A DNA stretch of 64,000 nt from Betaproteobacteria bacterium (GTDB lineage Bacteria; Pseudomonadota; Gammaproteobacteria; Burkholderiales; Casimicrobiaceae), in NCBI GenBank assembly GCA_013298695.1, contig JAAFIS010000003.1, forward strand, positions 62,001 through 126,000. Reading direction: 5' to 3'. Shown piece by piece: positions 19,773 through 56,574 of this stretch. A model generated the notes under the pieces. That model saw only the letters and a list, made by a program, of their open reading frames with translations. It made no database searches and was not told where the DNA came from. Made by a program: the position numbers and the translations under genes. Position 1 is the stretch's first letter. Each line of letters opens with the position of its first letter.

Positions 19773-19856
19773 GGAAGTACCTTTCAAAGAGAGTGCAGAT
19801 TCGGATCGACCCACACTCGCTTCACGGCGAATGCGTATCGACCGACTCGTGCCGCT

Positions 19857-20029
19857 CCCCCTGTCCTCGGTACCTGAGAGATTCGCGCAGATCCTTGTGA
19901 CCTGCACTTGCTCCTTCGGTGCGCTACCAACTACGTAGCAACTCTCCAGACGGCTTCAAAAAACTAGGCAGTAGCGGTGACCTGAGCGTGTATGGGAGTT
20001 TGCGCCTTCGGTGGATGCGTTTGCTACTG
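19857..20029 (-). ncRNA. Tandem glycine riboswitch
   Basis: Two aptamers on the minus strand upstream of dadA. Aptamer 1 (20029-19969) has P1 CAGTAGC/GCTACTG and the core CACCGAAGGCGCAA with GCTCAGGTCACCG. Aptamer 2 (about 19955-19857) has GGAGAG near its start, GCACCGAAGGAGCAAG, then CTCTCAGGTACCGAGGACAG. These are the diagnostic glycine-aptamer elements (CCGAAGG-GCAA and CUCAGG-GGAC). The short linker of about 13 nt is as usual for cooperative pairs. The downstream stretch to the start codon (19773-19856) would hold the expression platform; I saw no obvious terminator, so control may act on translation. Confidence 0.93.
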
Positions 20030-20069
20030 AACTAGCAAAATAATGCCGCATCGCTCTCCTGCTACATGC

Positions 20070-20098
20070 AATATATTGCATAAATCGTCGCATTGCAA
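20070..20098 (-). promoter_or_regulatory. Promoter of the riboswitch-dadA transcript
   Basis: Minus-strand -35 TTGCAA (20093-20098), 17-bp spacer, -10 TATATT (20070-20075). The -10 is embedded in the perfect palindrome TGCAATATATTGCA (20067-20080). Transcription would begin near 20063, giving a leader of about 290 nt that contains both aptamers. Between 20099 and 20290 I see nothing else. Confidence 0.7.
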
Positions 20099-53367: not shown

Positions 53368-53961
53368 ATGGCCATGCCAGACGAACAAAATACACCCACT
53401 CCCGAAATGCCCGCTGACGACGAGAGCGCAAAGCTCGCCGCTGAAGCGATCGAAAATGCCAATGCTGCTGCCGAGCTCACTCTAGAAGAGAAGCTCGCGG
53501 CTGCCGAAAACGAGATTGCCGCGCTGAAAGATCAACACTTGCGCGCGCTCGCCGAGCAAGAAAACATCCGCAAGCGCAACCAGCAAGAAGTGCAAAACGC
53601 TCGTGAATACGCCGCACGCGACTTCGCGTTCTCGATGCTCTCGGTAAAAGACACCCTCGAAATGGTGCTGAAAGACGATAAGAGCACTACTGAGCAATTG
53701 AAAATGGGTGTCGACATGACGCTCAAGAATCTCGCCTCTGCGTTCGAACGCGCCAAGGTTAAAGAAGTGAAATCGGACGGCGCGAAATTCGATCCGAATG
53801 TGCACCAAGCCATGAGCCAAATCGAATCGGACCAACCGGCAGGCACCGTGCTTCAGGTGTTCCAGAAGGGCTACATGATCGGCGAGCGCTGTTTGCGCCC
53901 TGCGATGGTCGCTGTTTCGGCGCAGCCCAAACAGCAGGACGACGGAGCCTCCGGCTCCTAG
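53368..53961 (+). CDS. grpE: GrpE nucleotide-exchange factor
   Basis: Exchange factor that releases ADP from DnaK. 197 aa with an acidic N-terminus, a long coiled coil (about 30-90: EEKLAAAENEIAALKDQHLRAL), the four-helix part and the C-terminal beta domain (FDPNVHQAMSQIESDQPAGTVLQVFQKGYMIGERCLRPAMVAVSA). The final eight residues (Q-D-D-G-A-S-G-S) and the TAG stop are encoded by the left hairpin array, so the native 3' end has been replaced or overwritten. The ATG at 53374 is an alternative start. Confidence 0.96.
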   Translation: MAMPDEQNTPTPEMPADDESAKLAAEAIENANAAAELTLEEKLAAAENEIAALKDQHLRALAEQENIRKRNQQEVQNAREYAARDFAFSMLSVKDTLEMVLKDDKSTTEQLKMGVDMTLKNLASAFERAKVKEVKSDGAKFDPNVHQAMSQIESDQPAGTVLQVFQKGYMIGERCLRPAMVAVSAQPKQQDDGASGS

Positions 53962-54010
53962 GACGTCGGCCTTCCGGCCTAGGACGACGCGACTTCGTCG
54001 CTATGACGCA
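53935..54010 (+). repeat. Left hairpin array of the grpE-dnaK insertion
   Basis: Four 9-nt linkers alternate with three small hairpins: CAGGACGAC (53935), hairpin GGAGCC/GGCTCC (53944-53958), TAGGACGTC (53959), hairpin GGCC/GGCC (53968-53979), TAGGACGAC (53980), hairpin GCGAC/GTCGC (53989-54001), TATGACGCA (54002-54010). Loops are TCC, TTCC and TTC. The grpE stop is the TAG of the second linker. Confidence 0.88.
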
Positions 54011-54083
54011 AGGTCTTCGGTGAAAACGGAAACCAACGCATGCTTTTGATGTTCGCTGTCAGATTTAACGCATAGAGAAATTA

Positions 54084-54452
54084 ATGACTACCGACGAAAA
54101 ACAGCAGCGATCCCATCGCGACTTTCCGGTTTGGAAGGCGGCGATGACGCTTGCTGAAACCGTGTACGAAATTAGCGCGAAATTTCCAGCGGATGAGCGA
54201 TTTGGGTTGACCGCGCAGATTCGGCGTTCGGCGGTGTCGATTCCGTCAAACATTGCAGAAGGTGCCGGTCGTTCAGGCACCAATGAACTCGGTCACTTTT
54301 TAGGCATCGCGCTCGGCTCCGCTGCCGAACTTGAGACCCAACTTGAATTAGCAGATCGTCTTGATTTGGCCGAAGGTTTCGGCGAAGCCTTCGACCAACT
54401 AGAAGACGTAAGAAAACAACTCATCTTATTCAGGCGTTCATTAAAGACATAG
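54084..54452 (+). CDS. Four-helix-bundle (23S rRNA IVS-type) protein
   Basis: 122 aa of the S23/TIGR02436 four-helix-bundle family, seen in DFPVWKAAMTLAETVYEIS, RFGLTAQIRRSAVSIPSNIAEGAGR and ELGHFLGIALGSAAELETQLELADRL. Relatives are encoded in intervening sequences of 23S rRNA genes, as diversity-generating retroelement accessory proteins (Avd), and as solitary genes of unknown role; they are small, basic-faced and can bind nucleic acid. It is inserted between grpE and dnaK on the same strand and framed by inverted hairpin arrays, with AGAG before the ATG. The context suggests the gene and arrays form one mobile or RNA-processed element. Confidence 0.9.
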   Translation: MTTDEKQQRSHRDFPVWKAAMTLAETVYEISAKFPADERFGLTAQIRRSAVSIPSNIAEGAGRSGTNELGHFLGIALGSAAELETQLELADRLDLAEGFGEAFDQLEDVRKQLILFRRSLKT

Positions 54453-54456
54453 ACAT

Positions 54457-54534
54457 TGCGTCCTAGCGAGCAAAGCGAGCGTCGTCTTAGAGGTCGAAGA
54501 CCTCGTCGTTCTAGGGCGAAAGCCCGACGTCCTT
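54457..54534 (-). repeat. Right hairpin array of the grpE-dnaK insertion
   Basis: Mirror image of the left array: TGCGTCCTA (54457), a 15-nt unit GCGAGCAAAGCGAGC (54466-54480, hairpin lost or mutated), GTCGTCTTA (54481), hairpin GAGGTC/GACCTC (54490-54504), GTCGTTCTA (54505), hairpin GGGC/GCCC with GAAA loop (54514-54525), GACGTCCTT (54526-54534). Each linker can pair with the linker in the matching place on the left. Confidence 0.88.
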
Positions 54535-54547
54535 TTGCGAGCCGCCA

Positions 54548-54577
54548 CTTGAATGGTGATCGAAGCGAACCCACATA
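54548..54577 (+). promoter_or_regulatory. Heat-shock-like promoter of dnaK
   Basis: CTTGAAT (54548-54554), 15-bp spacer, CCCACATA (54570-54577), a fair sigma-32 match. It lies downstream of the right array, so dnaK can be induced independently of the interrupted grpE message. Confidence 0.55.
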
Positions 54578-54609
54578 GCACAACAACAACTTAGTTACGG
54601 AGAAAAAAC

Positions 54610-56574
54610 ATGAGCAAAATCATCGGCATTGATCTGGGAACCACGAACAGCTGCGTAGCAGTGATCGAGGGCGGTCAGCCTAAAGTCATCGAAAATTCGG
54701 AAGGCGCGCGCACGACGCCGTCAATCGTTGCCTACATGGAAGACGGCGAGATTACCGTCGGTGCGCCTGCGAAGCGTCAAGCGGTGACGAACCCGAAGAA
54801 CACGATCTATGCAGTGAAGCGCTTAATCGGTCGCCGCTTCGAAGAAAAAGAAGTGCAGAAAGACATCAGCTTGATGCCGTATGCGATTGTCAAAAATGAC
54901 AACGGTGACGCTTGGGTTGAAGTGCGTGGCAAGAAAATTTCGCCACCTGCGGTCTCCGCAGAAACGCTGCGTAAGATGAAGAAAACGGCAGAGGACTACC
55001 TCGGCCACGAAGTCACCGAAGCGGTGATCACTGTGCCTGCCTACTTCAACGATTCGCAGCGCCAAGCGACAAAAGACGCAGGCCGAATTGCAGGCTTAGA
55101 AGTCAAGCGCATCATCAACGAGCCGACCGCAGCGGCGCTCGCGTTCGGTATCGACAAAGTCAAAAAAGACGGCAAGTTCGCGGTGTACGACTTGGGCGGC
55201 GGAACGTTCGACGTTTCGATCATCGAAATCGCAGACGTCGATGGCGAAAAGCAATTTGAAGTGCTCTCTACTAACGGTGATACGTTCTTGGGCGGCGAGG
55301 ATTTTGATCAACGCTTGGTCGATTACCTCTGCGAAGAATTCAAGAAGCAAAGCGGCATCGATCTCACCAAAGATCCGATTGCATTGCAACGTATCAAAGC
55401 GGCCGCAGAGCGCGCGAAGATTGAGCTTTCTTCAAGCCAGCAGTCGGAAATCAACGAACCTTACATCGCGATGGATGCGACCGGGCCGAAGCATCTCGCG
55501 CTCAAAGTCACGCGCGCGAAGCTCGAATCGTTGGTGGAAGAGTTGATCAATAAAACGATCGAGCCTTGTCGCGTTGCGTTGAAAGATGCGGGACTGTCGG
55601 TTAACCAGATTGATGATGTAATTTTGGTGGGCGGTCAGACGCGGATGCCAAAAGTCATCGAAGCGGTGAAAAACTTCTTCGGCAAAGAGCCACGTAAAGA
55701 CGTAAATCCTGACGAAGCCGTTGCCGTTGGCGCTGCGATCCAGGGCTCCGTTCTCGCGGGCGATCGCAAAGACGTGTTGTTGTTGGATGTGACACCGCTT
55801 TCGCTCGGTATCGAAACACTGGGCGGCGTGTGCACAAAACTCATCAAGAAAAACACCACGATTCCAACGAAGGCATCGCAGGTTTTCTCGACGGCGGACG
55901 ACAATCAATCCGCTGTGACGATTCACGTGTTGCAAGGTGAGCGCGAAGTCGCTGCGGGCAACAAGAGCCTTGGCCAATTTAATCTTGAAGGTATTCCGCC
56001 AGCGATGCGCGGCACGCCGCAGATCGAAGTGCAATTCGATATCGACGCCAACGGCATCCTGCACGTGAGCGCGAAAGACAAAGGCACTGGCAAAGAAAAC
56101 AAGATCACCATCAAAGCGAACTCGGGCTTGTCAGAAGACGAAATCCAGCGCATGGTGGATGATGCGAAAGCCAATGAAGCCGACGACAAAAAACGTCTCG
56201 AAACCGTTCAATCGCGCAACGCGCTTGACACGCTTGTACACAGCGTGAAGAAGAGCCTCGGCGAATACGGCGAACAAATCGACGCCGCTGAGAAAACGAG
56301 CATCGAGACCGCGATTAAAGACGCCGAAGAACTCCTAAAAAATCAGGAGGCCACGAAAGAGGCCATGGACGCGAAAGCCGAGTCGCTCTCCGCCGTTGCT
56401 CAAAAACTAGGCGAGAAAATGTACGCCGCCGCTCAAGCCGAAGCACAGAAAGCGGGCGGGGCTGAAGCCGCAGCAGGTGGCGCAGAAGCAAAAGCCGCCA
56501 GCGGGAAACCAGGCGACGACGCGAAAGTAGTGGATGCGGATTTCACTGAGGTGAAAGACGATAAGAAGAAGTAA
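54610..56574 (+). CDS. dnaK: Chaperone DnaK (Hsp70)
   Basis: 654 aa, complete Hsp70. ATPase domain: [15 protein letters not shown] at the start, then [16 protein letters not shown] near 195-210 and [12 protein letters not shown]. The linker [15 protein letters not shown] precedes the substrate-binding domain, followed by the helical lid and an Ala/Gly/Glu-rich tail ending in EVKDDKKK. It works with GrpE (upstream) and DnaJ; no dnaJ follows here, whereas it commonly does. A stem-loop terminator comes 14 bp after the stop. Confidence 0.98.

Follow-up and report, generated by a model that had tools for sequence, protein, structure and literature searches.

An IVP gene between grpE and dnaK framed by inverted linker-hairpin arrays, a likely mRNA-sited counterpart of 23S rRNA intervening sequences

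The closest described systems are the intervening sequences (IVS) of 23S rRNA genes, for example that of Coxiella burnetii, which contain an open reading frame (ORF) for an S23/IVP protein; the available part of the source describes these proteins as lacking a known function (PMC4990558). According to excerpts of a second study, bacteria of the candidate phyla radiation (CPR) carry rRNA inserts with IVP ORFs (PMC11270868). The element reported here spans positions 53935..54534 on the + strand of the window, a 64,000-nucleotide stretch of the Betaproteobacteria contig JAAFIS010000003.1. It is located between two protein genes, grpE and dnaK, and not within a 23S rRNA gene. Like the 23S rRNA IVS, it has an IVP gene between pairing inverted repeats. 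Unlike them, it resides in an mRNA between two protein genes, its arms are arrays of linkers and hairpins, and many of its copies are gene-less. The element is probably of the IVS type, placed in mRNA, and a genus-specific variant of a widespread family of IVP genes with inverted heptad arrays, in which IVP would act in trans.

Dispersed heptads have been described several times. G-rich heptads are known from Xanthomonas and Nostoc, and two Xanthomonas genomes contain 70 and 75 of them as convergent inverted pairs; G-quadruplexes are considered in the excerpts of that paper, whose main text, as far as it is available, does not contain the terms four helix, S23 or 23S (PMC4692102). The arrays described here are dispersed as well, and the Xanthomonas-type unit GGGAATC frames an IVP gene in Luteimonas, but the unit of the window element is without such G-runs. 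The TAACTGA repeats of Beggiatoaceae are dispersed intergenic 7-mers in direct orientation, with one inverted case, and IVP terms do not occur in the accessible main text of the paper describing them (PMC4679880). They resemble the present arrays as short dispersed intergenic units and differ in being mostly direct. The short tandemly repeated repetitive sequences (STRR) of cyanobacteria are also heptads, and heptads stand beside plasmid IVP genes here; we know of no previous link between STRR and IVP. A literature search, with preprints and most subscription papers outside its coverage, returned no paper linking heptad arrays to IVP genes. We also found no named element of this design, in agreement with the preliminary description of the locus, which was made from the sequence alone.

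Miniature inverted-repeat transposable elements (MITEs) and the repetitive extragenic palindromes of bacterial interspersed mosaic elements (REP/BIME) are short, dispersed and hairpin-forming. The array pairs differ from both in their mostly unrelated cores and in the lack of a transposase in the element. Compared with MITEs and other elements bounded by terminal inverted repeats, the dispersed copies have terminal inverted repeats in common and no common internal sequence. The IVP family is homologous to Avd, the four-helix-bundle protein of diversity-generating retroelements, as stated in the available part of PMC10053308. Unlike those retroelements, the genomes G000 and G014 of the genus studied here, both rich in copies, have no match to the reverse transcriptase family PF00078. 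A reverse transcriptase was rejected as a required partner on this ground; PF00078 matches occur in 10 of the 15 genus genomes searched.

Architecture of the element and its IVP gene

The left array of the element (53935..54010, + strand) is composed of four 9-nt linkers (53935-53943, 53959-53967, 53980-53988 and 54002-54010) separated by three hairpins of 15, 12 and 13 nt (53944-53958, 53968-53979 and 53989-54001). The right array (54457..54534, - strand) is the mirror image of the left one, with linkers at 54457-54465, 54481-54489, 54505-54513 and 54526-54534 and hairpins of 15, 15 and 12 nt at 54466-54480, 54490-54504 and 54514-54525. The arrays enclose the IVP gene (54084..54452, + strand; 369 bp), which encodes a four-helix-bundle protein of 122 amino acids. 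The preliminary description had given the bounds of the element and the order of its parts correctly and regarded the whole as one composite element, which the comparison of occupied and unoccupied homologous sites supports.

In profile searches, the IVP protein matches PF05635 (E 2.8e-32, 111.5 bits) and TIGR02436 (E 6.1e-32, 110.1 bits), above the curated cut-off of 33.8 for the former and the cut-off of 24 for the latter. The sole solved relative found by sequence is PDB 2gsc (XCC0516; E 6.3e-26). The window genome has a single IVP gene at E 0.001, and no match to IVP was obtained at E 1e-5 across 50,697 phage records, so that carriage by phages was rejected. The plasmid collection contains no DNA resembling the 600-bp element. 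The IVP gene is kept by purifying selection: 17 of the 28 pairs compared within the genus are saturated, and the 11 computable ones have dN/dS ratios of 0.025-0.053 (seven pairs) and 0.073-0.135 (four pairs).

Inverted arrays around IVP genes in other bacteria

We assembled 126 IVP loci from relatives, class searches and the best 80 contig matches, all picked by protein similarity and not by flank. One duplicate of the window (L088) was removed, as were nine loci whose flanks were short, contained N or had been misread; the remaining 116 were scored for inverted complementarity of their two 250-nt flanks. The z score exceeds 3 in 88 loci, 5 in 58 and 8 in 32, and the window element reaches 11.8. 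With the genus excluded, 83 of 107 loci remain above 3. Flanks compared in direct orientation exceed z 3 at 23 of the 116 loci. Two of 200 control ORFs (of 369 found, taken from loci of at least 9 kb) pass the same inverted threshold, a comparison that is lenient because many control flanks are coding DNA. When right flanks from 20 other IVP loci with similar G+C were offered as partners, the locus's own right flank was the best at 60 of the 116 loci.

Tandem arrays form 108 of the 232 arms, and their period is a multiple of 7 in 84 of these, as compared to 7 of 306 control windows. The 84 heptad arms yield 64 unit consensus strings, many of them near-variants, and G exceeds C in 75 arms when read 5' to 3' towards the gene. 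Both flanking ORFs are co-directional with IVP at 75 of 97 loci, versus 135 of 240 control triples (p 3e-4). These sequences point to a widespread family of IVP genes bounded by inverted arrays, often of 7-nt units, with units that differ from locus to locus. In the Luteimonas locus (L141), the GGGAATC-type unit frames an IVP gene between genes read as accB and accC. Three IVP matches occur in genome G058. Two of them, L059 (z 6.7) and L063 (z 11.6), are flanked by inverted arms built from different heptads; the third, L066, is a weak match (E 5e-6) whose flank z score of 1.2 is not significant.

The preliminary description had related the protein to 23S rRNA intervening sequences, and this link is corroborated by locus L065 of genome G017, where an IVP gene lies within a 23S rRNA gene (2442 bits to Rfam LSU_rRNA_bacteria; flank z 11.1). 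Heptads of the CAACTGT type stand on both sides, the right arm being just below the tandem cut-off (13.5 versus 14). At L096, 23S motifs lie beside IVP (z 3.5), the assignment to 23S being made from motifs alone. A second IVP gene of G017, with GGGGGAA-type heptads, lies between genes read as dnaK and dnaJ. The same genome has four more close inverted pairs of this heptad, 100-290 bp across, and its sister genomes G023, G028 and G032 have none. The 23S rRNA intervening sequences may be regarded as rRNA-sited members of the inverted-heptad family of IVP.

An IVP match was found in 39 plasmid records, at least 30 of which are cyanobacterial by name. Each of the six cyanobacterial plasmid loci read has heptads to the left of IVP. 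Clear inverted arms are seen in L299, L300 and L302; those of L303 are of mixed orientation, and in L301 and L304 the right arm is weak. In the plasmid loci L302 (Anabaena sp. 90) and L303 (Pseudanabaena galeata), IVP and its heptad arrays are positioned between cas6 and cas4. This placement may account for the inclusion of IVP in lists of CRISPR-associated genes, as given in the available parts of two studies (PMC3936711, PMC10910872).

Dispersal in the window genome and distribution in the genus

The window genome contains 85 matches to the linker-hairpin-linker pattern and 6 to its reversed form. The 27 stretches selected by pattern hits, with some pattern places lying outside them, contain 37 linker clusters, a few of which are probably chance occurrences, and 24 pairs in which a right array comes after a left one. 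Among these 24 pairs, two share a right arm with a neighbor, and the right arm of one more (C6) is doubtful. No right-then-left pair closer than 353 nt occurs in the stretches read. Most copies are gene-less and consist of an array pair around a unique core: there are about 20 such inverted pairs in addition to the IVP pair. Seventeen pairs have three or more linkers on each side, and nine of these have exactly 4+4. Among the linkers, [CA]AGGACGWC is the most frequent form at the outer positions and TA[TG]GACGCA at the inner ones. According to the preliminary description, the linkage of arrays and gene would be chance if relatives lacked the linker periodicity or if the arrays occurred without the gene and never inverted around one. 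Gene-less arrays do exist, again as inverted pairs, and the periodicity recurs in relatives. Beyond that description, the arrays are a dispersed genome family, and their design is the local version of the widespread inverted heptad arrays framing IVP genes.

Eight of the 17 genomes of the genus (G000, G002, G005, G009, G010, G011, G012 and G014) have IVP between grpE and dnaK. The empty site that the preliminary description proposed to look for in relatives is found in eight of the nine other congeners, in which grpE and dnaK were examined and IVP is lacking; grpE was not found in the ninth, G003. The distance from the LRPAMVAV motif of GrpE to dnaK is 540-865 nt in the eight IVP-bearing genomes, and 158-189 nt, plus one case of 320 nt, in the eight IVP-less ones. 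Hairpin units number 34, 1, 24, 43, 16, 0, 19 and 52 in the IVP-bearing genomes, in the order listed above, and plain heptads number 1, 1, 23, 12, 10, 22, 18 and 16. The nine congeners without IVP at the site have 0-1 hairpin units and no plain heptads; 13 genomes of other genera have none of either, except for one hairpin unit in one genome. The reversed control pattern for hairpin units occurs 0-6 times within the genus and up to 14 times in other genera. Arrays of hairpin or plain heptad type are thus present in all eight genomes with IVP at grpE-dnaK and nearly absent from the nine without it. The reversed control pattern for plain heptads has 11 matches in G002 and 4 in G007, which represent another heptad family.

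The grpE-dnaK site of G009 contains plain 7-nt arrays with outer edges AAGGACG and inner edges GACGCAAAGC in both arms. G011 has plain 7-nt arrays with the same outer edges and the inner edge GACGCAAAGC on the right only, and the right array of G010 is not recognizable. Because plain heptads occupy this site in G009 and G011, we conclude on sequence grounds that the hairpin array looks to be a heptad array whose units are separated by hairpins. In the genus, a heptad unit around GACG appears to have acquired a variable hairpin between one unit and the next. In G011 (L214), the left heptad array enters the start codon of IVP (ATGACGAATGACGAG), so that the gene opens with codons made of array sequence.

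The 15 loci compared at dnaX-ybaB and ybaB-recR are of the hairpin type, of the heptad type, partial or empty, depending on the genome. Inverted arrays of the GAACAGT type occupy dnaX-ybaB in G007. Other long inverted repeats are found at the same intergenic sites in the ybaB loci L220, L221, L230 and L233 (of G009, G002, G015 and G001), with types CCCTCACCC / GGGTGAGGG and GCGGGGA. It is as if these intergenic spots took in small elements of various kinds.

A tree was built from pieces of GrpE, DnaK and YbaB of 16 genomes, with G003 omitted and a DnaK piece of only 47 aa for G009; in it, the IVP-less G001, G004, G006, G007 and G015 cluster together (0.918). This cluster falls within the other genomes if the tree is rooted on the most divergent ones. 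The IVP tree groups G009 with G011 (0.992), whereas the neighbor genes group it with G000 and G002 (0.976), and this conflict suggests that the element alone was exchanged. A divergent IVP gene is located between genes read as hisA and hisF in G012 (contig C14, L064), with no arrays and a z score of 1.1. G007 has a divergent IVP gene away from grpE-dnaK, similar to that of L064 and situated at a contig end (L061). IVP genes of this type are possibly domesticated.

Folding, rival explanations and proposed mechanism

The preliminary description proposed that the linkers could pair in order into a long helix of four segments, and took the hairpin stems, which differ between the sides while the linkers are kept, as a sign of selection on structure. 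Region 53900-54570 folds more stably than 20 shuffles (z -4.28), but its arms folded separately are no stabler than shuffles (z -0.70 and -0.80), and the best fold of the left arm alone differs from the three-hairpin form. The in-order complementarity of the linkers exists as described, with a score of 30 of 36, yet it ranks fourth among the 24 permutations (best 31). Single linkers match across the whole window at chance level when one mismatch is allowed (13 matches versus 13.5 expected). Swapping arms among 17 elements gave -45.5 kcal/mol for own arms versus -42.4 ± 12.1 with the arms of other elements, and own-arm pairing has a mean rank of 7.9 of 17. Since the in-order match is true yet unexceptional, selection on the long helix is not demonstrated in the family; neither permutation nor arm swapping supported a register-matched, element-specific helix as the selected trait, and we rejected it. 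The part of the claim that stands concerns the local hairpins, on which selection is supported by covariation in the genome-wide family. In 137 of the 155 units read in the window genome, those of 10-30 nt, 3.97 of 5 terminal pairs are kept, versus 2.75 ± 0.07 after the 5' and 3' halves were redealt.

The reading of the element as IVS-type draws on its anatomy, dispersal, presence and absence, gene co-occurrence, gene conservation and one gene tree conflicting with the neighbors, all of which were observed. Several observations weigh against it. The flank z score is 3 or lower in 28 of the 116 IVP loci, 15 of which are also without a tandem arm, and three loci of the genus itself, L054 (G010), L055 (G011) and L057 (G009), score below 3. 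G002 carries the IVP gene yet almost no arrays (1+1 matches), and shared ancestry could underlie the co-occurrence of arrays and gene. No element was caught in movement, and a target-site duplication is unreadable because the unoccupied grpE-dnaK and ybaB sites are too diverged. The cores of the gene-less pairs (20 cores, 40-130 nt) are mostly unrelated, with z above 4 in 12 of 190 pairs, some of which owe this to leftover array units. None of the 20 cores resembles the IVP gene at z above 3, and one reaches z 3.0 against the leader of the window element. The gene-less pairs are therefore not simple deletion copies of one element, and their origin as deletion derivatives of the IVP element was rejected.

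The arrays could instead be host regulatory structures, such as mRNA stabilizers, RNase III sites or attenuators, with IVP as a host RNA-binding regulator. The conservation of IVP, its place in the dnaK operon of two genera (the dnaK-dnaJ case being read from flanks) and the position of the elements at dnaX-ybaB-recR and grpE-dnaK between co-directional genes would agree with such a role. We nevertheless consider it unlikely, given the presence and absence of elements among congeners at three sites, the unrelated cores, the variety of heptads (64 consensus strings, many near-variants, in 84 arms) and the lack of any terminator-like site on the + strand.

It is quite improbable that replication slippage produced the heptads and template switching the inverted repeats, with IVP as a functionless passenger. 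Only 2 of 200 control ORFs show flank complementarity, albeit in the lenient control described above, the arrays follow the gene within the genus, and the edges of the hairpin elements are fixed, nine of 17 pairs having exactly 4+4 linkers. Slippage and template switching would nonetheless fit the array length, which within the 250-nt flanks varies between about 2 and 34 units, and the sharing of a unit by the arms of one locus (1.5 mismatches versus 3.5 across loci, in the 22 loci with heptads in both arms).

It is very improbable that the arrays are hairpin repeats of the REP/BIME kind mobilized by a Y1 (RAYT) transposase, with IVP caught between two of them by chance. The hairpins do have short conserved spacers, Y1_Tnp genes occur in 13 of the 15 genus genomes searched and IVP in G002 and G005 is followed downstream, at about 3.2-3.6 kb, by a Y1 gene, but Y1_Tnp is also present in G001, G004, G006, G013 and G015 with zero or one array match, G000 has one weak Y1 match (29 bits), array units are found at one of ten Y1 loci fetched (that of G000 not among them), and the inverted arrays of unrelated repeats around IVP elsewhere are left unexplained. 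Y1 transposases do not track the arrays across the genus.

For the IVS-type element in mRNA, we envisage that the two arms of the transcript would fold into a long interrupted stem, which would be tolerated between operon neighbors. By analogy with the rRNA elements, as they are described in the available part of PMC4990558, RNase III would probably cut this stem. A ring-shaped IVP protein may recognize the repeated unit, whether in RNA or in single-stranded DNA, and may be required in trans for the origin, spread or maintenance of arrays. We infer both this trans action, because arrays and gene co-occur, and the mode of movement of the element. More tentatively, IVP could be the trans factor of an undescribed mobile or array-building class, recognizing short, often 7-nt units and producing inverted arrays of them around arbitrary sequence, with or without the gene; the rRNA IVS, the Xanthomonas and cyanobacterial heptads and the hairpin arrays of the window would then all be its products. 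Through the link reported here, S23/IVP proteins, described as lacking a known function, and the heptad repeats left unexplained in the available parts of PMC4692102 and PMC4679880 each gain a testable partner in the other.

The grpE gene (53368..53961, + strand) terminates inside the element. The first three bases of the second left linker are the TAG stop codon of the grpE frame (53959-53961), and the element therefore contains the end of GrpE, its last codons included. The downstream host gene (54610..56574, + strand) was named dnaK from the DnaK N-terminus in its translation. No sigma-70-like site is present in 53800-54640, which fits, without demonstrating it, the transcription of IVP from the grpE transcript. 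At gathering scores, Rfam has just two matches in the window, both to the glycine riboswitch (RF00504). They form tandem aptamers at 19851-20071 on the - strand, with scores of 53.9 and 38.8 bits.
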